In this document: positions 3,234-21,099 of the stretch, piece after piece
How positions within the stretch are numbered: the stretch's first letter is position 1
How the letters are laid out: every line of letters starts with the position of its first letter
IMG/VR virus record: IMGVR_UViG_3300049826_000052
Location: 1-23,608 of that record
Direction: 5' to 3' (one strand)
Origin: a virus
DNA: 23,608 nt
Program-made: the position numbers and the translations under genes
The notes under the pieces: model-generated
Databases searched by the model: none
The model's input: only the letters and a program-made list of their open reading frames with translations
What the model was told of the DNA's origin: nothing

Positions 3234-3571
3234 TGTTCTACAATTTTACGCTTTCAAATTTTGATAGAGGAAGAATTGTTGGGTTTAATTGCGGAGTAAT
3301 AAAGGCCAAAGAAGAGTTTGACCGCTGGAAAGATATATTTGAAAAAGAACTACAGACCAAAGTTCTAAAAGAATTTCCCGAACATTTTAAAATGCAGCTC
3401 AAAGTGGTAGATCGCGGATACCTTAGCCCAGTGGATTTCCACGGAGGACAAATTATTACCGCGCTTAGCGGAGAGATTGTTTCTTATGAGCTTCCAACAT
3501 TGTCTATGGCAATAATTCTTGAGCCAGTTAACAAGCGCATAATGATGCATGAGATTAAGGAGACAAAATGA
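3233..3571 (+). CDS. Hypothetical protein (112 aa)
   Basis: ATG 3233 is preferred over GTG 3230 because it lies 7 bases from a GGGGG ribosome binding site; only one residue is affected. The 112-residue protein is soluble with a charged N-terminal helix (KAKEEFDRWKDIFEKEL) followed by alternating strands (KMQLKVVDRGYL, FHGGQIITALSGEIVSYELP). It ends overlapping the lipoprotein transglycosylase gene (ATGA) and so is probably co-translated with it. I do not recognise it. Confidence 0.6.
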   Translation: MFYNFTLSNFDRGRIVGFNCGVIKAKEEFDRWKDIFEKELQTKVLKEFPEHFKMQLKVVDRGYLSPVDFHGGQIITALSGEIVSYELPTLSMAIILEPVNKRIMMHEIKETK

Positions 3572-4185
3572 AAAAACTAATAATAGCAGCGCTGCTGATT
3601 ACGGGGTGCGCGAGCGTTCCAGTGGAAGCTCCGAAGGAAGAAAAGCCAGCGGACGCGGTTGACATTGTAAGCACGGATAATTACTGGCCGAGCGCAGACA
3701 TGCTCATTGCAGCGCACATTGCCTTAAAGCAATACGGGAAAGACTTGCTTGCGTATGAGCCAAAGGACGCAAAAGAGTGGGGCCTTGGCGGTGATAAACT
3801 TGCGTATTACAGCAAGCTACTAAGTGCGATGGCCAAATTCGAAAGCGGCTACGATGCAAATCAAACTTACACAGAGAATTTTAAAGACCAGTGGGGAAAT
3901 CTTGTGCGCTCCGTGGGCATTATGCAGGTGAGCAGTGAATCTTGCGCAGGGTATTTGGGCAAGTACATCGCTGACAAAGACTTAAAGCTAAACGCAAACA
4001 ACTTAGCTTGTGCAGTAGCGATATTAAACAAGTGGGTGCCTAAGCATGGCGTAATCGCGCAGGGTAACGGACTTGGAGGCGCTATTTATTGGAGCGTCTT
4101 GCGTGAAAAGAACACGCAAAAAGGCGTAGGATCTACAAGGAAAGCAATCAAGGAAATGCTATGTGCAAAAAATGCAAAGAATTAG
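3568..4185 (+). CDS. Lipoprotein lytic transglycosylase (lysozyme fold)
   Basis: The 205-residue protein has a type II signal (MKKLIIAALLITGC, lipobox cysteine 14, Ala at +2), so it is likely to be anchored in the outer membrane facing the periplasm. Glu92 in FESGY and the later GIMQV at 117-121 are the hallmark of SLT/goose-lysozyme-type enzymes, with Glu92 as predicted catalytic acid. These cleave the MurNAc-GlcNAc bond of peptidoglycan. It is followed almost at once by an M15-type peptidase, so the pair probably forms the lysis set, though a virion-free lipoprotein hydrolase could also act in other envelope steps. AAGGAGACAAA precedes the start. No holin gene is recognised nearby. Confidence 0.8.
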   Translation: MKKLIIAALLITGCASVPVEAPKEEKPADAVDIVSTDNYWPSADMLIAAHIALKQYGKDLLAYEPKDAKEWGLGGDKLAYYSKLLSAMAKFESGYDANQTYTENFKDQWGNLVRSVGIMQVSSESCAGYLGKYIADKDLKLNANNLACAVAILNKWVPKHGVIAQGNGLGGAIYWSVLREKNTQKGVGSTRKAIKEMLCAKNAKN

Positions 4186-4367
4186 AGACAGCGAATGCGC
4201 TCCTCATTGAACGCATAGACAAGCTGACAGACAGAACAACAACGGAACAGCTATCTGTAGCACTCAAGAAAATATTTGCCCTAGTATCTCCAGGTAGATC
4301 ACAATTGGAGTGGGAGATATTCAAGATATGCAACTCACAATTGAAAATTTCAAAGACTCGAAAGTAA
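4161..4367 (+). CDS. Small coiled-coil hypothetical protein (68 aa)
   Basis: ATG 4161 follows AAGGAAATGCT and overlaps the transglycosylase gene by 25 bases. The product starts with a CKKC pair, then a heptad-like helix (ELETANALLIERIDKL) and a second helical part. No signal is present. It also overlaps the next gene by 40 bases. The long overlaps on both sides lower confidence, but without it the ribosome binding site and the gap up to the peptidase start would be unexplained. Confidence 0.5.
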   Translation: MCKKCKELETANALLIERIDKLTDRTTTEQLSVALKKIFALVSPGRSQLEWEIFKICNSQLKISKTRK

Positions 4368-4732
4368 AAGAACGCTTCGACCTACTACACCCGGAACTTA
4401 AATCAATAGCACTAGAGATGCACTTCTACTGCGCGGTTAACGTAATGCCTTTTGTTTTAACAGAAACCGCTACTTCACCAGAAGAGGACGCCTTGCTGCA
4501 GAGGAAATCGAAATCACACTCCGAATCACGCGCAATCGACATACGCACCAGAGACTGGCCTGATTGGTTTAGACTGAAATTCATCGCCGAGTTTACTACA
4601 CGCTACGGTGACATCGGCGCTATATCAAACACGGGACAGCGTAACTTTCTCGTGTATCATAACTCAGGCCACGGAGATCACATACACGCTCAACTAGATA
4701 CTACATTCGCCATAAAATCCGAGTTAACATAG
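4328..4732 (+). CDS. M15-type peptidoglycan peptidase (putative endolysin)
   Basis: From ATG 4328 the product is 134 residues; GTG 4310 would add six residues. Its key motifs are KSHSESRAIDI (His64, Asp71) and HGDHIH (His118, His120), matching the SxHxxGxAxD and HxH zinc ligands of the VanY/L-alanyl-D-glutamate peptidase family, although the usual glycine of the first motif is Ser67. Such enzymes cut the stem peptides of peptidoglycan. There is no signal peptide, so export would need a holin or another route. The size is typical of small M15 endolysins. Together with the lipoprotein transglycosylase just upstream it would attack both glycan and peptide bonds. Confidence 0.75.
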   Translation: MQLTIENFKDSKVKERFDLLHPELKSIALEMHFYCAVNVMPFVLTETATSPEEDALLQRKSKSHSESRAIDIRTRDWPDWFRLKFIAEFTTRYGDIGAISNTGQRNFLVYHNSGHGDHIHAQLDTTFAIKSELT

Positions 4733-5567: not shown

Positions 5568-5809
5568 TGCTCTGGGCGACTAAAGACTCCTCCAATCAAA
5601 TATTCTCCCTTGACCCTCCAGAACAAGGCGACGAAGATAATTGGATCTTGCTAACCACAAGAGAAGTTCACTACAAAGACATGGCAAAAATGCTAGACAG
5701 ACAAGTTTCACAATATAATAAACAAGAAGACTATCGCGCCGCCAAAGTAGCAAAAGACCTAGCAGAAGAACTAAGACGCGCAGTCTACCAAAACACCACG
5801 GTTAATTAA
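5564..5809 (+). CDS. Small hypothetical protein (81 aa)
   Basis: ATG overlaps the exonuclease stop (ATGA). The product has an N-terminal region with NQIFSLDPPEQGDEDNWILL and a C-terminal charged helix (DYRAAKVAKDLAEELRRAV). No signal or motif is recognised. Its position between an exonuclease and the neck proteins, with overlaps at both ends (ATGA and TAATG), indicates membership of the same transcription and translation unit. Function is unknown. Confidence 0.6.
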   Translation: MMLWATKDSSNQIFSLDPPEQGDEDNWILLTTREVHYKDMAKMLDRQVSQYNKQEDYRAAKVAKDLAEELRRAVYQNTTVN

Positions 5810-6264
5810 TGAAGGCTTACAAATTTAACCCAATCAAAGAACTAGACCTTGAAATACCGCGCTCACATCGTCGCGAAGCCATGGAAGCCGCCGCAAACTA
5901 CATACGAGAAGCCATGCTAGATTACATAGGCGAAGGCAAGTCTCCAGTCTCAGGCGGTAAATGGGTTCGATCACTAACCAAAGAATACGCTAAACTTAAA
6001 TCTGAAGAATCATCTGCTGGATTTGCTAACTTAGAACTATCTGGAGATCTACTCGACTCACTCATAGTAGAATCAACAACAAACTCAATAACAATAGACG
6101 TTCCATCCGATCAAGAAGGAAAAGCAGAAGGCCACTTAACTGGAGTCTATGGCGATCATAGCAAATCAATCCGCCCACGCCAGTTCATGCCCCAACCAGG
6201 CGAAACATTTAAACGCGATATCCTCCAAGGACTAAAGGAAATACTAAGTGAGTTCGAAAGTTAA
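5809..6264 (+). CDS. gp10-like neck/tail-completion protein, copy 1
   Basis: The 151-residue protein resembles the HK97 gp10/virion morphogenesis family that joins head to tail: an N-terminal helical part, GKSPVSGGKW, NLELSGDLLDSL, and a late segment with EGH, RPRQFMPQPGETF and a closing helix. The same ordered landmarks appear in the next gene, so the two are tandem paralogues. Members of this family normally lie between connector and tail-terminator genes, and here both lie before the terminase. The start overlaps the previous stop (TAATG) and no strong ribosome binding site is seen. Assignment is by motif layout, without a database search. Confidence 0.6.
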   Translation: MKAYKFNPIKELDLEIPRSHRREAMEAAANYIREAMLDYIGEGKSPVSGGKWVRSLTKEYAKLKSEESSAGFANLELSGDLLDSLIVESTTNSITIDVPSDQEGKAEGHLTGVYGDHSKSIRPRQFMPQPGETFKRDILQGLKEILSEFES

Positions 6265-6739
6265 CCTAAAACTAGAGCCCCTAAAGCGGTTACTTAAAGA
6301 CATACCGTCCAAGGCCGCACTCGCCTCAAATAGAGAGATAGCAAAAACCGCTAAAGAAAAAATACTAGACCTAGTATCTAAAGGCATATCTCCAATAGAT
6401 GGCAAAGGCAGATTCCCTAACTACAAAAATACCCAGAAATACCCAAAACGAGCGCGAAAAAATTTCCCATCTAAACGTAATCGACCAGTCAATCTCACTC
6501 TCTCAGGTAAATTCCTCCGCGCATTAAAGTCATTCCCAAAATCACTAAACATAATCACTATAGGATTCTTCTCACAATACGGCGAAGACCTAGAACTAGG
6601 ACACCGCGAAGGCGCAAACTCACAACCACAACGCCCAATAATACCTCAAGATGGCGAATCATTTGCTAAATCAATACAAGCTGCTATCCTCAAACTATAC
6701 AGAGATAGCATTCTCGATTACATCAAACGCAATCGGTAG
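6248..6739 (+). CDS. gp10-like neck/tail-completion protein, copy 2
   Basis: GTG 6248 follows AAAGGAA and overlaps copy 1 by 17 bases. The 163-residue product shares with it the order GISPIDGKG, NLTLSGKFLRAL, ELGHREGA and QRPIIPQDGESF, then a terminal helix. Identity is low outside these blocks, so the duplication is old. It is more basic than copy 1 (several Lys/Arg runs in the central part). A division of labour in the neck, or one copy being a capsid or tail accessory protein, is possible. The stop at 6737-6739 lies within a small 5-bp hairpin (6733-6746). Confidence 0.6.
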   Translation: MSSKVNLKLEPLKRLLKDIPSKAALASNREIAKTAKEKILDLVSKGISPIDGKGRFPNYKNTQKYPKRARKNFPSKRNRPVNLTLSGKFLRALKSFPKSLNIITIGFFSQYGEDLELGHREGANSQPQRPIIPQDGESFAKSIQAAILKLYRDSILDYIKRNR

Positions 6740-6768: not shown

Positions 6769-7140
6769 ATGGCAGGCGGAAGGCCAACAGACTACAAGCC
6801 AGAATATTGTAAAATGCTCATAGAACATATGGAGCAAGGCTACAGCTACGAAACATTCGCAGCGATAATAGATGTTAGTAAACAAACTTTGTATGATTGG
6901 GAAAAAGTACACCAAGAGTTTCTTGACTCCAAAGGTAGGGCATTCGCCAGATGCCAACTATTTTGGGAAAAATTATCAATAGAAAATCCAATGATATCTA
7001 GACAGCATGGACTGAATACTGGAACTTGGGTTTTCAACATGAAAAACAGATTTAAGTGGACAGATAGAACTGAAATTGAAGCTGGAGAAAAAACAAGGGC
7101 CGCTCTTAAGCTTGCATATAATCTGGAAGATGATGAGTGA
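6769..7140 (+). CDS. terS: Terminase small subunit
   Basis: This 123-residue protein begins MAGGRPTDYKPEYC and contains a helix-turn-helix region around residues 27-50 (YSYETFAAIIDVSKQTLYDW), the usual start of phage small terminases. It would recognise phage DNA, form a ring and hand the DNA to the large subunit for cutting and packaging. The C-terminal half (NTGTWVFNMKNRFKWTDR) matches the oligomerisation part of this family. GGGGGAAG precedes the start, and the stop overlaps the large-subunit start. The size is at the short end of the family. Confidence 0.85.
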   Translation: MAGGRPTDYKPEYCKMLIEHMEQGYSYETFAAIIDVSKQTLYDWEKVHQEFLDSKGRAFARCQLFWEKLSIENPMISRQHGLNTGTWVFNMKNRFKWTDRTEIEAGEKTRAALKLAYNLEDDE

Positions 7141-8498
7141 CTCCAACACTACAGTCATTTAATCCAAAGAAAATTCCTTATCAGCTCAATGTAATCAAAG
7201 ACATAAGAAATAATTTTGACTACAAGAAGTATAGCTTTCATGAAGTACTATTAAGCGGCTCTGTTGGATCGGCAAAGTCTATATTGCTTGCTCACATTGC
7301 TGTTACTCACTGCTTGTTTTATCCAGGAGCAAGATTTTGTCTGGCTAGGCGTTCAATGCCAGATCTTAAGCGCACAATATTCCAAACAGTGATTGAGCAT
7401 ATCTCAGATCTTAACGACGACGACTATGTAATAAACGAAACGAAGGCCAGTATAAAATTCTCTAATGGTAGTGAGATAATTTCGACAAGCTGGGCTGACA
7501 AGAAGGCAAAGAAGGCGAGATCACTCCAGCTCAGCGGAATAGGATTCGAGGAAGTTACCGAAAATGACGATGACGATAAAAAAGCATACGATGAGCTAAG
7601 GCTTCGCGTTAACCGTTTGCCTCACATAAAAGAGCAGATAATTGTTGCCGCAACAAATCCAGATGCGCCCAGTCACTGGGCATATAAGCACTGGATTATT
7701 TCCAAAGAACCAAATAGGCACGTTTACTACTCGGTAACTACCGACAATCCATTCCTTCCAGCAACCTACATAGAGCAGCTTAAGCAAGACCTTGATCCAA
7801 AGATGGCAGAGCGCATGCTCAACGGTAAATGGATCGAGATTGAAGACGAAGTTGTTTATTATTCTTATTCACGAGATCGTAATTATAGAGACTACAATTA
7901 TCAAGTTAACCAAAGTCTTCCAGTTTACTTTAGTTACGACTTCAACATAGGAGCAGGCAAGCCTATGAGCTGTTGCTTCTTTCAAATTGCTAATGATACG
8001 TTTCATTTCTTTGACGAAGTTGTAATTGAAGGCGCTAGAACAGAAAACACGCTAGAGGAAGCAGCTAACAAAGGTCTGTTTGAGTTATCCGATATGTATT
8101 ATTGCAACGGTGACGCCGCGGGCAAACACAAAGACACTCGCTCAAATCAAACAGACTACGACATAATCGATAACTTCCTCAAGAGATACAAAAAGCAAAA
8201 TGGAACTTATTTAAGATATGAAAGAAAAATACCAAGCGCAAATCCTCCAATCCGTGATCGTCACAACATCGTCAATGCCTATTGCCACAACCTAAATAAT
8301 CAGGTTAGGCTTTATGTGTACAATAAATGCAAAACACTAGACGAAGGACTAAGACTAGTTAAATTGCGACAAGGAAGCCAGTACATTGAAGACGACTCCA
8401 AGCATTATCAGCACATTACTACCGCCGCTGGCTACGCAATCCATTATTATAATTCTACAAAAAATCACAACTCAACTGTGCAAATGATCAAGAGGTAA
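7137..8498 (+). CDS. terL: Terminase large subunit
   Basis: The 453-residue packaging motor carries an ATPase domain with Walker A GSVGSAKS (41-48), Walker B ending in FEE (137-139, Glu139 or Glu138 catalytic) and the coupling motif TNP (173-175). It also has a C-terminal RNase H-like nuclease domain with Asp268 (YFSYDFN), Glu294 and Asp326 (NGDAAG) as likely metal ligands. It uses ATP to push DNA into the procapsid through the portal and cuts the concatemer. The start GTG overlaps the small-subunit stop. Length is normal for the family. Confidence 0.95.
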   Translation: MTPTLQSFNPKKIPYQLNVIKDIRNNFDYKKYSFHEVLLSGSVGSAKSILLAHIAVTHCLFYPGARFCLARRSMPDLKRTIFQTVIEHISDLNDDDYVINETKASIKFSNGSEIISTSWADKKAKKARSLQLSGIGFEEVTENDDDDKKAYDELRLRVNRLPHIKEQIIVAATNPDAPSHWAYKHWIISKEPNRHVYYSVTTDNPFLPATYIEQLKQDLDPKMAERMLNGKWIEIEDEVVYYSYSRDRNYRDYNYQVNQSLPVYFSYDFNIGAGKPMSCCFFQIANDTFHFFDEVVIEGARTENTLEEAANKGLFELSDMYYCNGDAAGKHKDTRSNQTDYDIIDNFLKRYKKQNGTYLRYERKIPSANPPIRDRHNIVNAYCHNLNNQVRLYVYNKCKTLDEGLRLVKLRQGSQYIEDDSKHYQHITTAAGYAIHYYNSTKNHNSTVQMIKR

Positions 8499-8502
8499 CT
8501 CC

Positions 8503-9942
8503 ATGGAATGGAAGAGCATAATTCAGGAAATAGAATCAGACGAAAACAAGCGCAGAAAAGCTGAGCATGAGAAACGCTCCAGAGTTTATAATGATTATCA
8601 GCGCGAATACGTTCTAGAAATGCTAAGAAACGAGTTCTCTGAACAGACGGTTAGAGAAATGCGGACCATGACTAGTATCAATCTATGCAGAAGAATCATA
8701 GATGAGATGGCTAGCATTTATAAGCGCAAGCCAGAGCGTGAATTTAAGGAAGTAAACGAAACTCAGGAAGATGGAATAGAGACAATTTACCAAGATGCTA
8801 AGGTAGATACTTTTCTTAAGCGAGCTAACCAGAAATACAAGTTACATCACCAGTGTGCCGTGCAGGTTATACCAAAAGACGGTAAGATTTCTTTGCGTGT
8901 TCTTTCTCCAAATCACTATGACGTTATTCCTAATCCAGAAAACCCAGAAGAAGCTTTAGCATACGTAATCAGTGCATATGACAAGACCTTGGCAGACAAC
9001 GCAATCAACGCACAGAAAGACATCCAAGGTAACTACTACGGATCAAAGAACCAATCAGCGCCAGACGGTGTAAACCAAAAGATTGCAGACGAAGACGACT
9101 GGAAACAAAAGCAGAAGTTTTATGTTGTATGGACAAACGAAAGTGTTATCAAATTAGACAGCGACGGAAACGTTGTTAGTAACGATGTTAATCCAATAGG
9201 CATGCTTCCATTTATTGACGTTGCTGCTGAAAAGGACTTTGAGTTCTGGGTTAGAAGAGGCAGCGGAGTATCGGAATTCAATCTGGACTTCCTAGTTGTT
9301 TGCTCCGATACAGTAAACACAAATCGTTTACAGAGTTACGCCCAGCCCGTAATTGTTGCAGAGAAGATTCCAGAGTCTGTTACAGTTGGTCCACAGCATA
9401 TTCTGTTCCTACCTCTTGATCCAACACGGCCTGAAGTTAAACCAAGTTTTGAGTTTGCTTCTCCAAACCCTGATCTTAAGTCTTCTCTTGATCTTCAGGA
9501 CAGACTAATTAACTACTTCCTAACCGCTCAGGGTATTTCTCCTAAAACAATCTCAGGAACTGCAGAAAGTCAGAAGTTTACCTCTGGGCTTGAGCGGTTA
9601 CTTGCAATGATTGAACGTTTTGAGGCGTCGCAATCAGATATAGACTTATTTATAGACGTAGAAAATAAACTCTTCACAATCATGCGCGCCTGGTACGAAG
9701 CAATATCTGGAACAGACGCGCTAGATCAAAAATATAACTTCGGCGCATGGCCAGAAAGCTCTTACCTAAGTGTAGACTTCAAGGGTCCTGAAGCAGTTCA
9801 AACGGAAGCGGATAAAGAAGACTCAGTAATTAAGCGTCTAGACTCTGGATTAATATCTAAAGTAGAAGCAATCGCAGAGCTTAGAGGCATTAGTATAGAG
9901 GAAGCTAAAAAAATTGACCTGAACAACAACATGGAGGCATAA
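8503..9942 (+). CDS. Portal protein (SPP1 gp6-like)
   Basis: The 479-residue protein follows the terminase by 4 bases, with AGAGG before the ATG. An N-terminal helical part contains RRIIDEMASIYKRKPER. A central region has beta segments, and a long C-terminal crown or stem helix region contains TAQGISPKTISGTAESQKFTSG and FEASQSDIDLF. This layout matches the SPP1 gp6-like portal family. It forms the dodecameric ring at one vertex through which DNA passes, binding terminase and then the connector. The scaffold gene follows directly (TAATG). Confidence 0.9.
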   Translation: MEWKSIIQEIESDENKRRKAEHEKRSRVYNDYQREYVLEMLRNEFSEQTVREMRTMTSINLCRRIIDEMASIYKRKPEREFKEVNETQEDGIETIYQDAKVDTFLKRANQKYKLHHQCAVQVIPKDGKISLRVLSPNHYDVIPNPENPEEALAYVISAYDKTLADNAINAQKDIQGNYYGSKNQSAPDGVNQKIADEDDWKQKQKFYVVWTNESVIKLDSDGNVVSNDVNPIGMLPFIDVAAEKDFEFWVRRGSGVSEFNLDFLVVCSDTVNTNRLQSYAQPVIVAEKIPESVTVGPQHILFLPLDPTRPEVKPSFEFASPNPDLKSSLDLQDRLINYFLTAQGISPKTISGTAESQKFTSGLERLLAMIERFEASQSDIDLFIDVENKLFTIMRAWYEAISGTDALDQKYNFGAWPESSYLSVDFKGPEAVQTEADKEDSVIKRLDSGLISKVEAIAELRGISIEEAKKIDLNNNMEA

Positions 9943-10567: not shown

Positions 10568-11404
10568 ATGGCACAAATAGGACTAACAGAAGTATCCGCA
10601 ACTTCGATGGACGTGATTGCGTCTATCGTTTTAGATACCCTTAAACAGGAAAGTAAACTAATCCCTCTAGTTGGCGATTATTCTGCTTTCGCGCAAAAAG
10701 GTGCGATGAGTGTAAAGGTTCCGCGCAGAACGCAATTCGCTGCTGCAGATAAAGCAGAAAATACTGCTCTTACTGCACAAGAATTAACTTTTGCAGTTGA
10801 TACTATCAGCTTAACAAAAAACAAGGCAATCTATGCGGCACTTGAACGTGTTGCAGAGATGCAGGCCACGCCAAATGTTGAGTCTGAAATAATTATGGAG
10901 ATGGCAAAAGAATTGGCACTACAAGTAGACAAAGATATTTTTGCTTGTATCGCCGCTGCTTCCGCCGCTGCTCCTGACCATCGTTTAGTCTTTGTTGGAG
11001 CTGACGTTGCTCAGGCCGACCTTCTAAGCGCACGATACTTGCTAAACGTACAAAACTGCCCACTGGATAACCGTTATCTTGGTATCGCACCAGATCAGGA
11101 GAAAGCTCTTCTTTCTATCTCTGATTTTGTTCGCGCCGACGCCTATGGTTCTGCCGGAGGTCTTGTAAATGGCGAGATCGGCCGTCTTTATGGAATGACG
11201 GTTGTAATGTCTAACGTGTTCACTGCTGCTCGTGCTTACGTTTGGCATAAGTCTGCTGTTGGCTTCGCTCAACAAATGACACCAGAATACAGCACTGACG
11301 TTGATCTTAAGAACACGGCAAAAGAATACTTGTTGCAACACATCTACGGTTGTCAAACCATGGACAGTGGTAAGCGTCAAGTTCTCTTGGGCTCTGCTGC
11401 ATAA
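10568..11404 (+). CDS. Major capsid protein (HK97 fold)
   Basis: The 278-residue protein has the features of a phage coat subunit: an N-terminal arm, the strand region SVKVPRRTQFAAADKAENTALTAQ, the long spine helix (about 94-135, with VESEIIMEMAKELALQVDKDIF), and a late A-domain segment GGLVNGEIGRLYGMTVVMSNV. It would form the icosahedral shell. There is no N-terminal delta domain long enough to act as a built-in scaffold, which fits the separate scaffold gene. A strong ribosome binding site and a structured region just after the gene suggest high expression. Confidence 0.9.
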   Translation: MAQIGLTEVSATSMDVIASIVLDTLKQESKLIPLVGDYSAFAQKGAMSVKVPRRTQFAAADKAENTALTAQELTFAVDTISLTKNKAIYAALERVAEMQATPNVESEIIMEMAKELALQVDKDIFACIAAASAAAPDHRLVFVGADVAQADLLSARYLLNVQNCPLDNRYLGIAPDQEKALLSISDFVRADAYGSAGGLVNGEIGRLYGMTVVMSNVFTAARAYVWHKSAVGFAQQMTPEYSTDVDLKNTAKEYLLQHIYGCQTMDSGKRQVLLGSAA

Positions 11405-12275: not shown

Positions 12276-12593
12276 ATGAGTACAGTTACAAGTACAGTCA
12301 GAGCGCGGTTAGTACAATCCACTATCCCGACGATTTATAACCTATCAATGGCATTGGCAAACACTGAATATTCTCAGGCTCTTTCTACTGCTACAAAAAA
12401 AATACTAATCAAAACAAGAGACAGAACTGCAAGAATTAGGCTGGCGTTTGTCTCTGGCGATACATCAATTACTTGGATTACTGTAGAGCCAGGAAGCGTT
12501 TACTTTGAAGAGAATTTAGACCTGACTGGTGTTACAATTTATCTACAAACTAACAAGGCTTCTCAGATAGCTGAGATTTTAGAGTGGACATAA
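12276..12593 (+). CDS. Small beta-rich virion protein (105 aa)
   Basis: The 105-residue protein begins 3 bases after the previous stop. From residue about 38 it has strands KILIKTRDRTARIRLAF, then TVEPGSVYFEENLDL and TIYLQTNKASQIAEIL. This order (strand pair, PGS turn, charged strand, closing VxILE-type strand) resembles the terminal module of the flanking genes, so it is probably a single-module relative. Such proteins commonly decorate phage capsids. The ribosome binding site is weak. Confidence 0.6.
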   Translation: MSTVTSTVRARLVQSTIPTIYNLSMALANTEYSQALSTATKKILIKTRDRTARIRLAFVSGDTSITWITVEPGSVYFEENLDLTGVTIYLQTNKASQIAEILEWT

Positions 12594-12605: not shown

Positions 12606-13259
12606 ATGATTACTTTAGATAGTATTGATTATAGTTTGCACAGTATACAGATTAAAGACGCGGACGGGGATGCGCTTGCAATATCAGCAGCCGGAGAAAT
12701 CAGCGCTATTGTTTCAGACGGCGGAGGTTCAATTACCGTTGACGGCACTGTTGAACTTGGTGCCACAACGCTTGCTGCACTTGAAAGCATTACTGTTCAG
12801 AACGGGTCTGGAGCCTCTGCTGTAAATATTCAAGACGGCGGTAACTCTATTACCGTAGATGCAATTAATTTAGATATAAGAGATCTAACTCACGTATCTG
12901 ATTCTGTTAAGATCGGCGACGGTACTGATTTTCTATCAATAAACGCAGATGGTTCGTTAAACGTACAAACCGTAGAGGCCGGATATGCTTCGTGGTCTGT
13001 TGTTGCGGCAAGCGTTGACACAACAGCAGGTGGCGTGCAGCTTGTGGCTTCCCCACTTTCAAACAGATTAAGAATTGAAATTCAAAATCTTGGAACACAA
13101 GATATTTACATTAGACAATCAACTGGTGTTACCACATCAAATGGTCTTAAGATTCCAAAAGGATCTAGTTATGAGCAGGCTCTAGATGCTGGCGCTCAAA
13201 TTTGGGCAATTACGCCTTCTGGTACGAGCGACGTTCGCATAGCTCAATACGCAGCATAA
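12606..13259 (+). CDS. Probable head decoration/fibre protein with repeats
   Basis: AAGGAGG lies just before the start. Residues about 1-125 contain degenerate beta repeats (DGGGSITVDGTVELG, DGGNSITVDAINLD), typical of phage fibre-like stalks. Residues about 147-217 form a globular beta module with SNRLRIEIQNLGTQDIYI, STGVTTSNGLKIPKG and AITPSGTSDVRIAQYA. The same module is seen in the gene at 11595. A repeat stalk plus terminal module suggests a short head fibre or decoration trimer. No known enzyme motif is present. Confidence 0.65.
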   Translation: MITLDSIDYSLHSIQIKDADGDALAISAAGEISAIVSDGGGSITVDGTVELGATTLAALESITVQNGSGASAVNIQDGGNSITVDAINLDIRDLTHVSDSVKIGDGTDFLSINADGSLNVQTVEAGYASWSVVAASVDTTAGGVQLVASPLSNRLRIEIQNLGTQDIYIRQSTGVTTSNGLKIPKGSSYEQALDAGAQIWAITPSGTSDVRIAQYAA

Positions 13260-13269
13260 GGAATAGATA

Positions 13270-13458
13270 ATGGAACTGGAAAGAAGAGATGTTGAATTGT
13301 GTAAGGCTTTCCAGTCTATTATTAAGCAAGGGAAGTTTGAAATTAAAGGAGAGGCCGTTGCTCAGTGCGGCGGTCTTTTTAAATGGTTCATGGAGTTAGA
13401 CAAGAAGCTAGAAGCTGCAATTCTTGCAGCTCCACCTAAGCGCAAGGAACTTGAGTAA
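13270..13458 (+). CDS. Small hypothetical protein (62 aa)
   Basis: AAGGAATAGATA precedes the ATG. The 62-residue product is mostly helical (ELERRDVELCKAFQSIIKQG, LFKWFMELDKKLEAAILAA) with two cysteines and no signal. Its stop overlaps the next start (TAATG). It could be a small head protein or an assembly factor. I do not recognise it. Confidence 0.6.
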   Translation: MELERRDVELCKAFQSIIKQGKFEIKGEAVAQCGGLFKWFMELDKKLEAAILAAPPKRKELE

Positions 13459-14162
13459 TGGGATTTAGCCATCAAGATCTAACAGACAGTAATGATAAGC
13501 AAATAACTGCCTCAGAAAAAGAAAATAATTCTGCTGTGCCAGATTTTGCTTCTATGATTGGTGCCGACGACGGCACCAATATTAAAAGACTTCAAGGAAG
13601 AATCGCTCCTCCAATCCATACAGACTATGGTTTAATCACAAGGCCAGTTCCTTATGATCCGGCAACTTTTATTGGCTTTGCATCTGGAGTAGCTAACGTA
13701 GCAAACAAATCTATGATTTCTATTGCAAACACTGGTTCTACTGTTTGCAGAATTCATGAGATATGGTTAGCAAACATACAGACAACAGCAATAACTGGAA
13801 CAATGTCTTTTTACGAACTTCATAGAATAACAAGTCATTCAGCGGGCACATTAATTACAGCGGTAGCAAACGACACAGCAGACACACTTGGAGTTGGAAT
13901 TAGTGTTAGAACTGGAGCAACTGTTGCGGGAGAAGGCGCTACAATATTCAGGCAGCAATGGTCAAACGACGAGCATGGGGTAGGATCTCTAGATCAAGAG
14001 GGATATGATAAAGCATTTCAAAATGCGTTCCCATTCTACAGGGAAGGTCATAATCTGAAGTCTTTTGTTATAAGACAAAATCAAGGATTACATATAAAGC
14101 AGATAACTGGCGCTGTAGGCACTTTTGATTTGTGGGTTGTTTTTTCGGAGGCAACGGCATGA
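13458..14162 (+). CDS. Virion structural protein (beta sandwich-like)
   Basis: The 234-residue protein has an N-terminal segment with IGADDGTNIKRLQGRI, a pattern seen at the start of many phage head-surface proteins, and then a beta-rich body (MISIANTGSTVCRIHEIWLAN, SFVIRQNQGLHIKQI, TFDLWVVFSE). This looks like a jelly-roll or sandwich domain of a surface protein. No catalytic motif is visible. AAGGA lies before the start, and the next gene overlaps by 4 bases. A perfect 9-bp hairpin lies at 13557-13580 in the coding sequence. Confidence 0.65.
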   Translation: MGFSHQDLTDSNDKQITASEKENNSAVPDFASMIGADDGTNIKRLQGRIAPPIHTDYGLITRPVPYDPATFIGFASGVANVANKSMISIANTGSTVCRIHEIWLANIQTTAITGTMSFYELHRITSHSAGTLITAVANDTADTLGVGISVRTGATVAGEGATIFRQQWSNDEHGVGSLDQEGYDKAFQNAFPFYREGHNLKSFVIRQNQGLHIKQITGAVGTFDLWVVFSEATA

Positions 14163-14824
14163 TTGAGCTTTCTTGGGATAACTTTAAATCACAAGTTTTG
14201 GACACTGTCGGATGGTCATGGATATATTTTGATGTAGATGGACATTACAAAATATTTGCAAAACAGAATGATTTTACGGTTGTTTGCAAAATATATAAAG
14301 ACGATGGCTCTGATCAATCTGATTTTGAGTCAAATTATAAAGACAACGTTAGTAAGTTAATTGTTAACAATACAAAAACCCAGTTTGAGAGAGAAGATAT
14401 AATATTAAAGCTTTCAAGAGTCCAAGCTGACTTTGATGTAAGCGGGGAAGCAAAAATAAGTATAAAAGTACCAGGTACTCCAGGCACTTCAGACGTTAGA
14501 TATGTAGCCGGTGGCTATGCGTTTACAGATGTATTTTCATTTGGCGATGCTATGAATAAAATACAAGTTGTTGACGTTGATAATATTATAGGGATGGGTG
14601 CGAATACAGTTCTTAAAACATATCACGACGAAGAACTGGACGAAGAAAATCAAGGTTGGTATCTTTGGCCGTCTCCGCAAGCAGGAGGAGAAGTGGAAAT
14701 AGATCCAATTGGTTACTATGGAGAAATACCAGCCGGTCTTTATCTAGAGATATATTTCAAAAAAACAATTGTCTCTGGAGCCTCAAAAGTCTTCTGTGAT
14801 ATATGGTGGGGCAAAAACGAGTGA
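14159..14824 (+). CDS. Virion-associated hypothetical protein (221 aa)
   Basis: ATG 14159 is preferred over the upstream in-frame ATG at 14132 because CGGAGG lies 8 bases before it and it overlaps the previous stop as ATGA. The N-terminal part has WIYFDVDGHYKIFAKQNDF and a later SDQSDFESNYKDN, a combination that I recall from other phage head-region proteins. The C-terminal half is beta-rich with acidic loops. It has no enzyme motif. The phospholipase gene overlaps its stop by 4 bases, so the two are probably made together. Confidence 0.6.
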   Translation: MIELSWDNFKSQVLDTVGWSWIYFDVDGHYKIFAKQNDFTVVCKIYKDDGSDQSDFESNYKDNVSKLIVNNTKTQFEREDIILKLSRVQADFDVSGEAKISIKVPGTPGTSDVRYVAGGYAFTDVFSFGDAMNKIQVVDVDNIIGMGANTVLKTYHDEELDEENQGWYLWPSPQAGGEVEIDPIGYYGEIPAGLYLEIYFKKTIVSGASKVFCDIWWGKNE

Positions 14825-15624
14825 AGACAGCTCTTGTATTAAGCGGAGGCGGTGCAGGCGGAGCATTCCAAATTGGTGTTCTTAACAAGCTATGGCAAGA
14901 GGAAGAGCCTAAGGTTTCCGCGATTTATGGTACAAGCGTTGGTGCCCTAAACGGCGCGGCTTTAAAGCACATAGGACTAAAAGAATTAAACAAGATTTGG
15001 CTTAATATTAAGGGCAAGGGAGATGTTTTAAAGTTTAATTGGTTAACTTTAATAGGAATGTCTAAAGGAAAGTATAGCACCAAACCTCTTTCTGCGCTTG
15101 TGGAGTCTGTAGTTTCTAATGAGCCAGTGAACAAGATGATAGAAGTACTTGTTAGCGTTGTTAACCTAGAGACAAGTGAAATTAGTTACCACAAATCTGG
15201 TTCAATAGAGTTTCAAGATATGGTGCTAGCTTCTGCTTGTGTTCCATTCCACATGGAGCCCGTTGGTATGTTTGTAGACGGCGGAGTTAGAGATCACACG
15301 CCAATTGCAAAAGCCATAGAAGATGGCGCGAATAGAATCATAGTTATTTGCAACAACCCGCTACAGCGTAAGCAACGTGACATTGGATATAAGCCAAAAT
15401 GGCCATACTTAGTTGACATTGGTTTGCGATGCACAGACATTTTGCAGTCTGAAATACTCTACGGTGATTTAGTTAGAGCACTAGATTCTGGAATAGAGTT
15501 TGAGATTTACGCTCCAGACATTAGAATTATAGATACATTTGAGTATGATCCTGAGAAAATAAGACAAGCAATAGACCAGGGATATAATACCTTGCCCAAG
15601 TTTAACGGAGAGATTAGGATTTAA
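14821..15624 (+). CDS. Patatin-like phospholipase
   Basis: The 267-residue protein begins at GTG 14821, after GGTGGGG, so that the protein opens MKTALVLSGGGAGGAF; the ATG at 14803 has no ribosome binding site. The oxyanion-hole glycine run is at 9-14, GTSVG with nucleophile Ser39 at 37-41, and DGG with Asp152 at 152-154. All are intact, so the enzyme should be an active acyl hydrolase with a Ser-Asp dyad, acting on membrane phospholipids. It has no signal peptide. It overlaps the preceding virion gene by 4 bases and is followed after 3 bases by the connector, all in one direction, so it belongs to the phage operon. It could be a virion component that attacks the host membrane or a cytoplasmic lysis factor. 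Confidence 0.9.
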   Translation: MKTALVLSGGGAGGAFQIGVLNKLWQEEEPKVSAIYGTSVGALNGAALKHIGLKELNKIWLNIKGKGDVLKFNWLTLIGMSKGKYSTKPLSALVESVVSNEPVNKMIEVLVSVVNLETSEISYHKSGSIEFQDMVLASACVPFHMEPVGMFVDGGVRDHTPIAKAIEDGANRIIVICNNPLQRKQRDIGYKPKWPYLVDIGLRCTDILQSEILYGDLVRALDSGIEFEIYAPDIRIIDTFEYDPEKIRQAIDQGYNTLPKFNGEIRI

Positions 15625-15627
15625 TAA

Positions 15628-16467
15628 ATGCTCAAACAAAAGAACTTTCCTAGAGTGTTTATCTATGACGGTGTTACTTACACTGATTTAAGCTTTAAAA
15701 TGCTAAGCTTTGGTAGAGATTATTTTCAAGGATCAATCTTAACTACAGATTTTATTTACTTTGGGCGCTTCAAACAGTTTAGTTCTTTTTATGTTGAAAT
15801 GGGCTCTACAGTAAACGCGGTTTCTGCAAATCTAAATATAGAATATTGGAACGGAACGACTTGGGTTTCTGTTAGCTATCCGATTGACGACACAATATGT
15901 TTCTCTAGAAGTGGATTTGTTGAGTTCGAGTCTCCTAGCGATTGGGCAGCAAACACAATAAACGGAGTAGAAAACTATTACCTACGCTTAACCGTTTCGG
16001 TGAACACAACCGCAAATATCAGAATCCAAGGCATGAACGTTGTGTTTAGCGACGATCAAGACCTAAAAGGCGTTTACCCCACGGTTACAAATTATCTACA
16101 AAGTGGTGAGCTTAGTTTCATTCTTAGACATGAAAATTCAAGAGATTTAATAGTACAAGACATTAGAAACATCGCGATTAAAAAGCGCTCAGTAAGTGCA
16201 ACTTACTATGAAAACATTGATGCTTGGGATCTTTTAGAAATAGACGAAGTAAATATGTGGGCTACATATTTAACTCTTGAGAATATTTTCAGCGGGCTCC
16301 AGTCAAACGGCGGTGACTTCTACAAAGATAAGTCAGAGGAATATGCTAAAAAGGCAGAGTTTTACAAGAATGCTACATATCTAACTCTTGATAAAGATAA
16401 CGACGGTATTAAAGATTCTTCTGAGAGATCTTCAGATATTAGCGTCCGTAGGCTAGTTCGCAGATGA
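15628..16467 (+). CDS. Head-tail connector-like protein with N-terminal beta domain
   Basis: The 279-residue protein has an N-terminal beta domain (about 1-145, with NIEYWNGTTWVSVS and FVEFESPSDWAANTINGVENYYLRL) followed by a helical part (about 165-250) resembling gp6-like head-tail adaptors (NIAIKKRSVSATYYENIDAW, YLTLENIFSG, KSEEYAKKAEFYKNA). Near the end, DKDNDGIKD (255-263) fits a calcium-binding loop. The size is well above the usual adaptor of about 100-120 residues, so it is probably a fusion of a surface-type beta domain to an adaptor. Its position just before the tail-terminator gene fits a role in the neck. Confidence 0.6.
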   Translation: MLKQKNFPRVFIYDGVTYTDLSFKMLSFGRDYFQGSILTTDFIYFGRFKQFSSFYVEMGSTVNAVSANLNIEYWNGTTWVSVSYPIDDTICFSRSGFVEFESPSDWAANTINGVENYYLRLTVSVNTTANIRIQGMNVVFSDDQDLKGVYPTVTNYLQSGELSFILRHENSRDLIVQDIRNIAIKKRSVSATYYENIDAWDLLEIDEVNMWATYLTLENIFSGLQSNGGDFYKDKSEEYAKKAEFYKNATYLTLDKDNDGIKDSSERSSDISVRRLVRR

Positions 16468-16928
16468 GTTTAATTAGCACAGCATATGATTCTATGATTA
16501 CTAGGATTGAGGCGGTTTTAGACACCGTAAATCAAGGGTATAAAAGAATACACAACCCATACAGTATTCAAGATAACGAAGAGCTTTTTTTAGTAAAGGG
16601 ATATGGTTTAGCGGTCCTGACTGGCGAGAATACTCAGCGTGTAGTTAACTGCAAATTTACGGTTAATCGCAATGTTGAGGTTATTCTTACCAGGCTTTAT
16701 ACTGGCGCTGGTGAGGATGCAGTTCCAAAGGCAACGCTAGAGAAGCTTTTGTTAGAAGATCAATACAAATTAATAAATAATTTCGAACAAGACTTAACAA
16801 TCAACGGAACAACCATGTACACTAGATGGGTGAGCGACAGCGGAATAGAGTATGTTAATGGAGAAACTGGACGTTTCTTCATGCTTAGAACGCAGTTTTC
16901 ACTCGAATACCTTGAGACATTTATTTAG
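16464..16928 (+). CDS. Tail terminator-like protein
   Basis: ATG overlaps the previous stop (ATGA). The 154-residue protein has an alpha/beta layout with an N-terminal helix (STAYDSMITRIEAVLDTV), strands (FTVNRNVEVILTRLY), a middle helix (EKLLLEDQYKLINNF) and strands near the end (GIEYVNGETGRFFMLRTQFSLEYLE). Size, the position immediately before the tail tube gene and the closing strand pattern fit a tail terminator that caps the tube and docks to the head. No single motif is diagnostic, so the call leans on context. Confidence 0.65.
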   Translation: MSLISTAYDSMITRIEAVLDTVNQGYKRIHNPYSIQDNEELFLVKGYGLAVLTGENTQRVVNCKFTVNRNVEVILTRLYTGAGEDAVPKATLEKLLLEDQYKLINNFEQDLTINGTTMYTRWVSDSGIEYVNGETGRFFMLRTQFSLEYLETFI

Positions 16929-16941
16929 GGAGGAATGAAAA

Positions 16942-18447
16942 ATGGCTGAGAAGAATAGAGCGTCGTCGCTTGCTATCGTGGAAGAGACAACTGCAGGTAC
17001 GCCTGTAGCACCAACTTCTGGAACACAATTTATTGCATTACAAGAGGGTTTCACGCTTAACCCTAACTTTGATACGCTAGATAACGCAGAAATCCGTTCT
17101 AGCATCGGTCTTAGTAAACTGATTCAAGGTCTAGAGCGTCCAGAAGGATCTCTTGACCACTACTTACGCCATAGTGGAGTCGAAGGACAAGCTCCTAACT
17201 ATAGCTTGCTTCTAGAGTCTCTTATCGGAACCGAATCCGCTAACGGAACGGAACGCTTAACCGCTGCTGCATCGACGGTAAGTTTACTTAAGCTTGCTGC
17301 TGGCGGCGGCGACTTTGCAAAAGGTAAGGCAGTTCTTGTTAAAGATTCTACCTATGCAATTCGTCCAGTTGATTCTGTAAGCGGAAATGATCTAACTCTT
17401 GGTTTCAACTTAGCTACAGCTCCTGGCGCTGGTCTTGGAGCCGGTAAATGTGTAAACTACACTCCCGCCAATACTGGCCATCCTACGTTAACTACATGGT
17501 TATACCGTGGGGGTGGCGGCGCTCTTGAGGTTCTTGCTGGTACGCAAGTAACGCAGGCAAATATTTCTGTCGCCGCTGGGCAATTAGTTAACTCTAGCTA
17601 TAGTTTCGAAGGAACTAAGTACTACTTCGATCCAATAAACATTACAGCAGCGGACACGAAGCTTGATTTTACAGACGACGACGGCACTTTCGTGGCGACT
17701 GTTGAAGCAAAGCTTTATACTTCTCCGCATGAGCTAGCAAGCGCTTTGCAGGCCGCACTCAATGCAACTGCATCGACTGAGACATATACAGTTGTTTATC
17801 AGGATGCAGACGGTAAGTTTAAAATCACATCTACTTCGACGGTATTAAGCCTTCTTTGGAACACTGGTGCAAACACTGCAAATACAATCGGTGATAAGAT
17901 TGGCTTCTCTACTGCAGCAGATGATACTGGTAACTCTGGAGCAACTGGATACACTTCTGACAATGCTCAATCTTGGGCACCTTCGTTAACTCCTTCGTAT
18001 GACTCTGCAGATCCACAAGCAGCAAAGAACAACGAAGTTTTAATTGGCGATGCAGATGATTTAGTGTGTTTCTGTGCTTCGACTATCGACATCACTGTTA
18101 CAAACGATGTTCAAGACGTTGAGTGCGTATGCGCTGAGTCTGGTGTTCAAGAAAAAGTAATCCGCCAGCGTTCTGTTGAAATCAACGTTGTTGGTATCCT
18201 TGAAAGACACGATGCAGACAAGTTTAATAAGTTTGTGAATAATACAGACGTTAAATTCTTGTATAACTTCGGCTCTAAGTCCGGCGGTAACTGGGTTCCT
18301 GGAACATGCTGCTCTATTTATGTTCCAAAGTCGACTATTTCTAGCCATGAAGCTGGAGATGATAACGGACTTGTAACTATGAACATCAAGATTCGTCCAT
18401 ATGTACCAACCGACGGTTCTGGAGAATTCTATATTAACTTCCTCTAA
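16942..18447 (+). CDS. Major tail tube protein with inserted domain
   Basis: GGGAGG precedes the start. At 501 residues it is longer than most tube proteins (150-350). The first part (RASSLAIVEETTAGTPVAPT, then LDNAEIRSSIGLSKLIQGLE) and the last part (DVQDVECVCAESGVQEKVIRQRSVEINVVG, then MNIKIRPYVP) match the beta-barrel tube subunit that stacks as hexamers to form the tail. Between them, residues about 240-340 carry an inserted alpha/beta domain that also occurs in the distal tail gene at 21096. The insert probably projects from the tube surface. It is adjacent to the tail-assembly chaperone genes, as expected. Confidence 0.85.
   Translation: MAEKNRASSLAIVEETTAGTPVAPTSGTQFIALQEGFTLNPNFDTLDNAEIRSSIGLSKLIQGLERPEGSLDHYLRHSGVEGQAPNYSLLLESLIGTESANGTERLTAAASTVSLLKLAAGGGDFAKGKAVLVKDSTYAIRPVDSVSGNDLTLGFNLATAPGAGLGAGKCVNYTPANTGHPTLTTWLYRGGGGALEVLAGTQVTQANISVAAGQLVNSSYSFEGTKYYFDPINITAADTKLDFTDDDGTFVATVEAKLYTSPHELASALQAALNATASTETYTVVYQDADGKFKITSTSTVLSLLWNTGANTANTIGDKIGFSTAADDTGNSGATGYTSDNAQSWAPSLTPSYDSADPQAAKNNEVLIGDADDLVCFCASTIDITVTNDVQDVECVCAESGVQEKVIRQRSVEINVVGILERHDADKFNKFVNNTDVKFLYNFGSKSGGNWVPGTCCSIYVPKSTISSHEAGDDNGLVTMNIKIRPYVPTDGSGEFYINFL
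17659..17965 (+). other. Inserted domain in tube protein, related to one in the distal tail protein
   Basis: The encoded segment runs from LDFTDDDGTF through SALQAALNATAS, YTVVYQDADGKFKITS and IGFSTAADDTG to YTSD. It matches in order and spacing a segment in the gene at 21096 (nt 21243-21530): TATVTAGEYT, KSALEAAGAS, YTVSVHTDGRLKIVSD, IGYDTSADKTG. The similarity is at protein level only. It looks like an add-on domain used twice in the same tail. Confidence 0.6.
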
Positions 18448-18792: not shown

Positions 18793-19028
18793 AGGCTTCG
18801 CTTAAAAACGAAGCCAGGTGGTGGTTCTTAGGCGCTGCTGGTGGTGAACATAACTGGGCCAGGGAGACGGTCTACAGATATGTTAGAACCAAGAACATGA
18901 AAGAAATGGGTTACAGACTTGATCTCCCTGACAGTTTTACTATCGAATGCTTTGAGATAATTCAGGCAGAGATAGAAAAACAAAAAGCGCTTAAGGAGAA
19001 GCATGGCAAGGTCAACCGTCGAACTTGA
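18457..19028 (+). CDS. Tail assembly chaperone, -1 frameshift fusion (gpGT-like)
   Basis: Ribosomes slipping one base back at GGGAAAG (18780-18786) continue in the -1 frame to TGA at 19026-19028. The fusion has the 110 first residues of the short form followed by 80 more: DLEASLKNEARWWFLGAAGG, HNWARETVYRYVRTKNMKEM, then a charged helix (EIEKQKALKEKHGKVNRR). The -1 frame has no start codon near its beginning, so it must be made by shifting. It overlaps the tape measure start by 26 bases, as in lambda and relatives. The T-like part is thought to bind the tape measure and recruit tube subunits. Confidence 0.85.
18780..18815 (+). promoter_or_regulatory. Programmed -1 frameshift signal: GGGAAAG plus hairpin
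   Basis: The heptamer G GGA AAG at 18780-18786 matches the X XXY YYZ rule in the chaperone's reading frame and is the same heptamer used by phage lambda G/T. After a 7-base spacer come GGCTTCG (18794-18800) and CGAAGCC (18809-18815), a perfect 7-bp stem with an 8-base loop. The zero-frame stop TAG lies in the spacer. All elements of a -1 site are present at correct spacing. Confidence 0.9.
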
Positions 19029-21099
19029 ACTAGTCGCGCAAGTAAGCGAAGCCACCAAGACAGTTAAACGCTTTGCCGACGACACAAAGAAACAGCTAAG
19101 TGGTATCTCTCTTGCGTCAAACATAACTGCAATCGCTAGCGGATTTAATCTTTTGAGAGACGTTGCTGGTGGGGCTCTTGGAACTATAAATGATTTTCTA
19201 TCAGACGCAGTTGGTGAGGCTGTAGAAGCCGAAAGATCAATAACTAGTCTTGCAAATTCAATGCGGATTGTTGGTGATTTTTCAGAAGAAGCACTAAATC
19301 AATTTACGAATCTTGCAGATGAATTAGCAAAGACAACAACGCTAACCGATGATCAAGTCATATCTGCGGCTGCATTGGCTAAGACATATCAGCTAACAAA
19401 TAAAGAGACAAAGCAGGTAATTGAAGCCGCAAAAGACTTGAGCGCAATCACTGGCCAAGATCTAAATACTTCTGTAGAGAAACTTGCCAAAACTTATAAT
19501 GGATTTGTTGATAAATCACTAAAACAATTAGTCCCTGGCTTAAAGAGTCTTACTCAAGAACAACTTGCTAGTGGAGAAGCGGTAAAGCTAGTAGGTGATA
19601 GGTTCGATGGCACTGCTGAGACTCTTACAAACACATTTGGCGGGGCGCTTAAACAGCTAAATAATTCAATAAGTGAATTCAAAGAGCAAATTGGCAAAAT
19701 TGTTACTGAGTCTGAAGGAGCAATTCAGGTAATAAAGATTGCAGCACAAGCAATTAATGAACTTGGTAAAGCAACTGTTTTTGTTGTTAAGAATTTGAAT
19801 ATTTTCGAAACAGTTCTTGGTGCTATCGGAGCAGCAAGCCCATCTGTTGCTATTCTTTTAAGGATAGCAAGTGGTTTTAAATCTGTAAAAGAAGAATCAA
19901 ATGATGCAGCAGAAGGAACAAGAGAGTTACTTGATCAAATAAAATCAGCAGCGCGATCTGGTGGCGCTAAGATTGCAACAGATGAAGAAATAAAAAATAG
20001 AAGAAGCGCTTTAAGAGCACAGGAAGATGCTTTAGAAAAGTTTAATCAAGTTAGAGCAAGTCTTGAAACAGTTGGTTTAAGCGAAGTTGAAAAGATTAAT
20101 ATAGAGGCGCAAGAAAGAATAAATGCTGTCCGCGCTGGCGTATCTGGCGGCGCTTTATCTGCATCAAAAGCTCAAGATACAATTAAAAGAATAGAATTTG
20201 AAAGAATAACAAAAGTTAGAGCGTTCGAGGAGAAGCAACAAGAAGAGCTTGTAAAAAACCTGCTTGATCTTAGAAAAAAAACTGCCGATAGACTGCAAGG
20301 GATAATAAATGATCCAATTGGGTCTCTTATCCGTGGTGATACAGACCAAGGAACAGCATTGGCTGCTGGTCTTGCTCAGAAAGTATTGAAGGGCGCTCAG
20401 GGCGCAAAAGAATTATTGCAAGCTGGCGCTGGTGCCGCAGCAAGCGCCCTTCTTGGGCCAGCTTTTGGCCCTGTTGCTGGCGAGATAGTTGGTATCCTGT
20501 CTCAGGGGCCAGAAGAAGTTAAGAAGCAAGTTCAGGAGTTTGCTAGAGCCATTCCTGATTTGATTAAAAACTTAGCTGAAAGTTTACCTATATTGATTGA
20601 AACTCTTGTAACTGAACTTCCTCCAGCTTTGGCTAAAGCAATGCCCACAGTGGCTATTGGTTTTAGTACAGCATTGGCAAAAAATATTCCACAGATAGTA
20701 AAAGGCTTCGCAGAAGGCCTAGTACAAGCTGCGAAAGATTTCGTTAAGGCAATTATTGATCAGATTAAATCTGTCGGCGGTCTTCTTGACGGGATAAGCG
20801 GACAAGGGAGCGGTGGAATTTTCGAGGGTATACCAGTTTTAGGGGCCGTAGGCGGTTTCCTTGGTCTTGCCGGTGGCGGTAAAATCCCAGATAGCCCAAG
20901 ATTTTCTGGAGATAAATTCGGACCTGTTGCCCTTAACGCTGGCGAAAGAGTTTTAGACGATGGGCTTAACAGAAAGCTAGAAAGATTTCTGACTTCTGGT
21001 GGCTCTAGTCAAACACTTAACGTAAACTTTGCAATAGGACAGCAGCAATTTGCTAGAGCTGTTCTAGATCTTAACCGTAAGGGGTTTAGAACAGCATGA
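19003..21099 (+). CDS. Tail tape measure protein
   Basis: The 698-residue protein starts after AAGGAG and overlaps the chaperone fusion by 26 bases. It is largely helical with coiled-coil stretches (about 140-260 and 330-430), a hydrophobic Gly/Ala-rich section (about 465-500 and 590-620, with GAGAAASALLGPAFGPVAG), and the closing LNAGERVLDDGLNRKLERFL typical of tape measures. It sets tail length by spanning the tube lumen; at about 0.15 nm per residue this predicts a tail of about 105 nm. The hydrophobic section may help to pass DNA through the host membrane. No peptidoglycan-hydrolase motif was found in it. Confidence 0.9.
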   Translation: MARSTVELELVAQVSEATKTVKRFADDTKKQLSGISLASNITAIASGFNLLRDVAGGALGTINDFLSDAVGEAVEAERSITSLANSMRIVGDFSEEALNQFTNLADELAKTTTLTDDQVISAAALAKTYQLTNKETKQVIEAAKDLSAITGQDLNTSVEKLAKTYNGFVDKSLKQLVPGLKSLTQEQLASGEAVKLVGDRFDGTAETLTNTFGGALKQLNNSISEFKEQIGKIVTESEGAIQVIKIAAQAINELGKATVFVVKNLNIFETVLGAIGAASPSVAILLRIASGFKSVKEESNDAAEGTRELLDQIKSAARSGGAKIATDEEIKNRRSALRAQEDALEKFNQVRASLETVGLSEVEKINIEAQERINAVRAGVSGGALSASKAQDTIKRIEFERITKVRAFEEKQQEELVKNLLDLRKKTADRLQGIINDPIGSLIRGDTDQGTALAAGLAQKVLKGAQGAKELLQAGAGAAASALLGPAFGPVAGEIVGILSQGPEEVKKQVQEFARAIPDLIKNLAESLPILIETLVTELPPALAKAMPTVAIGFSTALAKNIPQIVKGFAEGLVQAAKDFVKAIIDQIKSVGGLLDGISGQGSGGIFEGIPVLGAVGGFLGLAGGGKIPDSPRFSGDKFGPVALNAGERVLDDGLNRKLERFLTSGGSSQTLNVNFAIGQQQFARAVLDLNRKGFRTA

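Follow-up and report, generated by a model that had tools for sequence, protein, structure and literature searches.

The gene locus

The DNA analysed here, called the window throughout, is a linear-class virus record of IMG/VR with a total length of 23,608 bases. Its plus strand carries one long operon, which runs from the terminase large subunit (terL) via portal, scaffold, major capsid protein (MCP) and a series of surface-type genes to a patatin gene, followed by D1, D2, tail tube, tape measure and a distal tail gene (Table 1). Gene calls were made mechanically, and terL, portal, scaffold, MCP, tail tube and tape measure are supported by family matches (Pfam/PHROG). Both immediate neighbours of the patatin gene, U1 and D1, are without Pfam or PHROG match. 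The original prediction had placed the patatin between head-surface genes and the connector; the virion operon is borne out by the family matches, while "head surface" and "connector" are positional assignments, the second of which is supported by a PHROG head-tail adaptor at the D1 position in relatives. The patatin position between U1 and D1 is referred to as the slot.

Table 1 Annotated features of the window (aa amino acids, U1-N and U1-C N- and C-terminal domain of U1; L numbers designate viral loci used for comparison)
Feature	Position	Strand	Remarks
DslA-like lysozyme lipoprotein	3568..4185	+	outside virion module
Terminase large subunit (terL)	7137..8498	+	family match
Portal protein	8503..9942	+	family match
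Major capsid protein (MCP)	10568..11404	+	family match
U5, surface-type protein	12276..12593	+	homologues in L042, L015, L228
U4, surface-type protein	12606..13259	+	homologues in L042, L228, L247
U3, small protein, 62 aa	13270..13458	+	weak similarity to small U1-adjoining genes of L042, L228, L237
U2, surface-type cassette protein	13458..14162	+	relatives upstream of other viral patatins
U1, paired virion-operon protein	14159..14824	+	domains U1-N and U1-C
Patatin-like phospholipase, slot enzyme	14821..15624	+	Ser39/Asp153 dyad
D1, next after slot, head-tail adaptor position	15628..16467	+	homologues in 28 viral loci
D2, conserved after D1	16464..16928	+	comparison with relatives
Tail tube protein	16942..18447	+	family match
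Tape measure protein	19003..21099	+	family match

Scans of viral contigs with MCP and terL yielded few relatives, and the closest terL relative (L002, 82 %) stops short of the slot. An Rfam search of the window gave no match, and promoter and terminator scans of the window remained at chance level. Two related genes in front of terL (5809–6264 and 6248–6739) have homologues between portal and MCP in L009, L014 and L228 and may represent a relocated virion gene pair. In addition, the gene at 321–839 contains a HELGH motif and encodes a probable lipoprotein metalloprotease without Pfam match; the product of 4310–4732 resembles by eye an M15-type peptidase (SESRAIDIR...GHGDHIHAQ) and has no match in Pfam or the PDB. 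The small protein of the U1 cassette is conserved at the level of weak similarity, with counterparts of U3 at 8764–9033 in L042 and 6053–6307 in L228.

The patatin and its partner U1

The patatin gene encodes 267 aa with a GTG start and without internal stops. This start is favoured over a possible in-frame alternative, the ATG at 14803, because the GTG is directly preceded by GGTGGGG. The gene overlaps U1 by 4 nt (14821–14824, GTGA) and is separated from D1 by 3 nt (15625–15627), both exactly as predicted. The protein matches the Pfam family Patatin (PF01734) with E = 1.2e-20 and 74.9 bits against a cut-off of 27.7, covering profile positions 1–190 of 191. All catalytic motifs are intact (GGGxxG, G-T-S39-V-G and D153-G-G), and S39, D153 and G9–G11 are conserved in the alignments A4 and A9; the Ser/Asp dyad is kept in 98 of 99 viral patatins. 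An intact dyad with Ser39 had been anticipated correctly, the aspartate being residue 153 and not 152. An AlphaFold (AF2) model of high confidence (pLDDT 89.6) adopts the patatin fold, with Foldseek matches to PlpD, patatin and CapV. From its sequence an acyl hydrolase activity on phospholipid is predicted. Neither a transmembrane segment nor a signal was found in patatin, U1 or D1 of the window.

U1 is composed of an N-terminal domain of about 85 aa (U1-N) and a C-terminal beta-sandwich (U1-C). The likely start is the ATG at 14159 behind GGAGG, with a 4-nt overlap with the preceding gene, within a longest ORF of 14132–14824. U1 of the window possesses both domains and lies directly before the patatin gene, whose product is on this basis counted as a slot enzyme. 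The predicted structure (pLDDT 84) consists of an alpha/beta N-terminal domain and a beta-sandwich, a fold search returned weak jelly-roll matches only, and the modelled fold is as would be expected for a particle or binding protein. The U1 sequence contains no lipobox. Homologues of U1 and D1 sought in cultured phages were not found. Since the iterated U1 and U2 families may have drifted, the counts given below rest on U1 domain HMMs and leave-one-out profiles. In larger phages, U1-N likewise precedes the patatin in about 20 additional loci, and in many jumbo-phage loci the U1–enzyme pair is not located beside identifiable virion genes. In L207, a GIY-YIG homing endonuclease-like gene (9161–9886) lies between U1 and the patatin gene.

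Conserved position of the nearest patatin homologues

A scan of viral contigs with the single patatin protein gave no matches, and a profile scan based on alignment A1 revealed 80 loci. The four nearest homologues (L041 62 %, L042 42 %, L044 38 % and L043 37 % identity) form one clade with the window patatin (SH-aLRT 98), from which the nearest bacterial proteins are distant. All four are encoded in virion operons, which follow two layouts: L041 and L043 have head-tail adaptor, neck genes and tail tube behind the patatin, and in L042 and L044 the patatin is situated between portal and MCP. In each of them the gene directly upstream carries the U1-C domain, at a gap of at most 6 nt or with a 4-nt overlap. 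Leave-one-out U1-C profiles recovered U1 of the window (5e-18), L042 (3e-26), L044 (4e-36) and L043 (1e-12); the U1 fragment of L041 was missed by this approach and is supported by a direct tblastn match (5e-5). No member of the clade was found outside virion operons. The check for a conserved position that the original prediction had proposed therefore came out in its favour, with the same upstream gene in every case. The patatins of L046–L048 and of the cultured phage RM378 have unrelated contexts and were set aside.

Exchange of enzymes behind U1

Two relatives of the window have a different enzyme in the slot. L247 shares terL (48 % identity), portal (36 %), MCP (31 %), a small post-MCP gene, U4, U1 and D1 with the window, and L228 shares the genes from portal to distal tail in the same order. 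In both loci the slot is occupied by a permuted papain-like enzyme of the YaeF/YiiX type (C92) which replaces the patatin and is followed by D1. U1 of the window shows 29–32 % identity to C92-linked U1s (L233, L223, L247) and 24–28 % to patatin-linked ones (L044, L042), and is by this measure at least as near to the former as to the latter. A second case is provided by the jumbo phages L202, L208 and L203. Their U1s are 64–66 % identical and form a clade with 98 % support, and the enzyme behind U1 is a patatin in L202, a C92 protein in L208 and a lipase in L203; the following gene is also common to L202 and L208 (47 %). These gene orders are most simply read as an exchange of the enzyme while U1 was retained. 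Because the deeper branching of both the patatin tree and the U1 tree is weakly supported, independent swaps were counted from gene order, which gives a minimum number.

Absence of the patatin from close relatives with otherwise identical operons had been named as a sign of random insertion. Such relatives do exist (L247 and L228), but their slot holds a different acyl-bond enzyme, which argues for a virion-linked function. In 28 further loci related through D1, both the U1-N gene and the patatin are missing, so U1 and its enzyme appear to be gained or lost jointly.

To what extent U1 is followed by such enzymes in general was examined in the reverse direction. A scan of viral contigs with U1-N only detected 48 loci, of which 32 were new and non-redundant after removal of patatin-set contigs, near-copies and loci without downstream sequence. 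A hydrolase is encoded one to three genes downstream of U1-N in 25 of these 32 loci and directly adjacent in 19, often with a 4-nt or 1-nt overlap. These enzymes comprise 21 C92 proteins, two patatins and two alpha/beta lipases; the U1-N seeds were taken from patatin loci and the patatin count is thus biased upwards, whereas the C92 and lipase findings are unbiased. All enzymes of this kind in the 32 loci (25/25) fall within +3 of U1-N. When gene positions were shuffled 20,000 times, a mean of 4.7 and a maximum of 14 of the 25 lay within +3, and a mean of 1.6 and a maximum of 7 were adjacent. The remaining seven loci have no recognised hydrolase within reach. C92 occurred in just 1 of 120 loci selected otherwise than by U1-N, and a third scan with C92 as query led to two contigs not found before, in each of which U1-N precedes the enzyme by one or two genes.

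The profile of the C92 proteins matches YiiX (2if6, 1.6e-13) and BcPPNE (3kw0, 1.2e-12) in the PDB, the residues of the permuted His-Tyr-Cys order are conserved, and Pfam Peptidase_C92 (PF05708) is matched by 11 of the 21 members. The active-site pocket of YiiX binds fatty acid (PMC3142127), and LRAT-like relatives of C92 are phospholipases A1/2 (PMC7387801). A lipid substrate of the C92 slot enzymes would be consistent with this, though they could instead be amidases or wall hydrolases. The lipase-type slot enzymes of L203 and L245 are alpha/beta hydrolase lipoproteins with matches to Lipase_2 and Palm_thioest. Patatin, C92 and lipase folds are unrelated, and their common theme is a predicted attack on fatty-acyl bonds.

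A similar arrangement exists in cultured Bacillus phages of the Grass group, where a C92 gene lies directly behind the tail-fibre gene in a tail-baseplate operon. In Bacillus phage Grass itself (L249, 7010–7489) this protein is annotated as enoyl-CoA hydratase-like, probably wrongly. Related proteins that look GNAT-like by eye are encoded between C92 and the head-tail adaptor in L226 (9318–9842, without Pfam match) and L230 (9285–9827).

Since unrelated enzymes replace each other behind U1, the locus very probably represents a conserved, U1-linked slot for interchangeable acyl-bond hydrolases and not a random insertion.

Lysozyme and putative host

The lysozyme of the window resembles DslA of Bdellovibrio (6ta9, 9e-19; PMC7511926), a deacetylation-specific lysozyme acting in prey exit, and is likely the phage's own wall-lysis enzyme. 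Matches to it are present in 39 of 119 genomes from the class of a Bdellovibrio genome, in 1 of 143 from the class of a Pseudomonas genome and in 0 of 117 from the class of a Desulfamplus genome. Because of this distribution and the likeness to DslA, a predatory, Bdellovibrio-like host is plausible.

Putative function of the slot enzyme

The earlier reading of the patatin as a virion-operon enzyme is supported in part: entry, lysis and effector roles are, as it had stated, inseparable by sequence alone, and the evidence leans towards a virion partner of U1. The favoured proposal, to which a probability of about 50 % is assigned, is that the slot enzyme is carried in the virion and acts on the envelope at entry, its presence in the particle being deduced from the operon position. 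U1 would be a two-domain surface or neck protein, made alongside the head-to-neck genes, which may bind or position its cognate enzyme on the particle. The enzyme, in the window without signal peptide, would leave the cell with the particle and, as the particle adsorbs to the next host or its genome enters, hydrolyse fatty-acyl bonds in the envelope of that host; depending on the enzyme, the substrate might be phospholipids, lipoproteins or lipid A. More tentatively, U1 might be a general virion adapter with a plug-in position for unrelated acyl- or lipid-cutting enzymes, that is, a modular entry device which breaches or loosens the envelope and is spread over many uncultivated tailed phages, from siphovirus-like to jumbo.

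The enzyme might also serve lysis, being produced late together with the virion genes and breaking the membrane of the host, or of the prey of a periplasmic predator, for progeny release. The late operon position of the slot fits this proposal, a precedent is the proposed lytic cassette of phage WO, with a patatin and a holin-like gene beside the tail module (PMC9203015), and in L235 a VanY/M15-type endolysin comes after C92 in a lysis-cassette-like arrangement. However, the window encodes its DslA-like lysozyme lipoprotein and a small transmembrane protein elsewhere (1965–4185), far from the patatin, the slot flanks are free of a holin-like gene, and the enzyme gene is tied to U1 instead of lysis genes. 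A lysis function is therefore the weaker reading and rather unlikely.

A role in virion maturation is improbable. In this case the enzyme would act while particles are assembled, by processing or deacylating either U1 or a lipid-bearing protein of the particle, and would leave the host membrane untouched. This would suit the close coupling with U1 through 4-nt overlaps; furthermore, YiiX-type enzymes were suggested to cut fatty acid–peptide amides, the viral ones for particle maturation (PMC3142127). A single specific protein-processing step fits poorly with enzymes of three unrelated folds, among them classical types of phospholipase and lipase, and U1 of the window has no lipobox.

Similarly little probability is given to an effector that is injected or acts within the cell, or to an auxiliary metabolic enzyme, either of which would remodel host lipids or disturb membrane-based defence, the operon position reflecting late expression only. 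The usual label for viral patatins is auxiliary metabolic gene (PMC9723777), those of L046–L048 are placed among replication-type genes, and PlpD and the CBASS phospholipases CapV/CapE are the closest in fold to the window patatin. But members of its clade never occur outside virion operons, and an auxiliary metabolic role explains neither the pairing with U1 nor the swap with C92. An assignment to CBASS or another defence system was rejected on score, as the protein reaches 34.6 against the cut-off of 200 of the NCBIfam model CBASS_lipase (NF041079).

Insertion as random cargo (moron) without virion link, which the lack of a patatin in the 28 D1-related loci could suggest, was rejected after the slot comparison and is very improbable, since the same loci also lack the U1-N gene, relatives with U1-N keep an enzyme in the slot and the adjacency is conserved across two phage architectures.

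The conserved slot offers a testable function for three enzyme groups whose usual annotation is auxiliary metabolic or hypothetical, namely patatins, YiiX-type proteins and lipases, and a likely role as enzyme carrier for the unnamed U1 family. Little is understood of the passage of tailed phages through host membranes, in contrast to that through the cell wall, and tailed-phage virions have rarely been linked to enzymes acting on lipids.

Comparison with known systems

With PlpD, patatin-17 and CapV/CapE (PF01734) the window patatin has the GTSVG elbow, the Asp-Gly-Gly motif and the GGGxxG oxyanion loop in common, as well as the fold (Foldseek E 1e-11 to 1e-13, TM 0.67–0.71). It differs from known patatins in being a small single-domain protein of a virion operon with its own viral clade and a predicted activity, and by its score it is no equivalog of CapV/CapE.

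In the Wolbachia phage WO, a holin-like gene and a patatin adjoin the tail module, at a position that is taken by a GH108 endolysin in related phages (PMC9203015). The window is alike in that the patatin lies beside structural genes and is replaced by another enzyme in related phages. However, WO has holin-like and ankyrin genes and an endolysin as alternative, whereas the partner in the window is U1 and the alternatives are C92 and lipase. A holin-like small neighbour with a single transmembrane segment was not found among U3, U1, D1 and D2 of the window, and the patatin does not take the place of an endolysin, as the window encodes the DslA-like lysozyme. The YaeF/YiiX-like enzymes (PF05708) take this position after U1 in no fewer than 21 independent loci; they are unrelated to patatin in fold and absent from the window itself.

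The parvovirus VP1u phospholipase A2, a capsid-borne phospholipase at entry (PMC9505059), is an analogy in the way of working, and its entry model has been questioned (PMC11311400). VP1u is a capsid-protein domain of another fold in a eukaryotic virus, while carriage in the virion is putative for the window enzyme. A modular entry device based on U1 would, if true, be the phage counterpart of this capsid phospholipase. The virion-associated peptidoglycan hydrolases of tailed phages are comparable in concept, as they degrade the envelope and their genes lie with those of the virion; in contrast to them, the window patatin has no peptidoglycan-hydrolase domain, and its predicted substrate is lipid.
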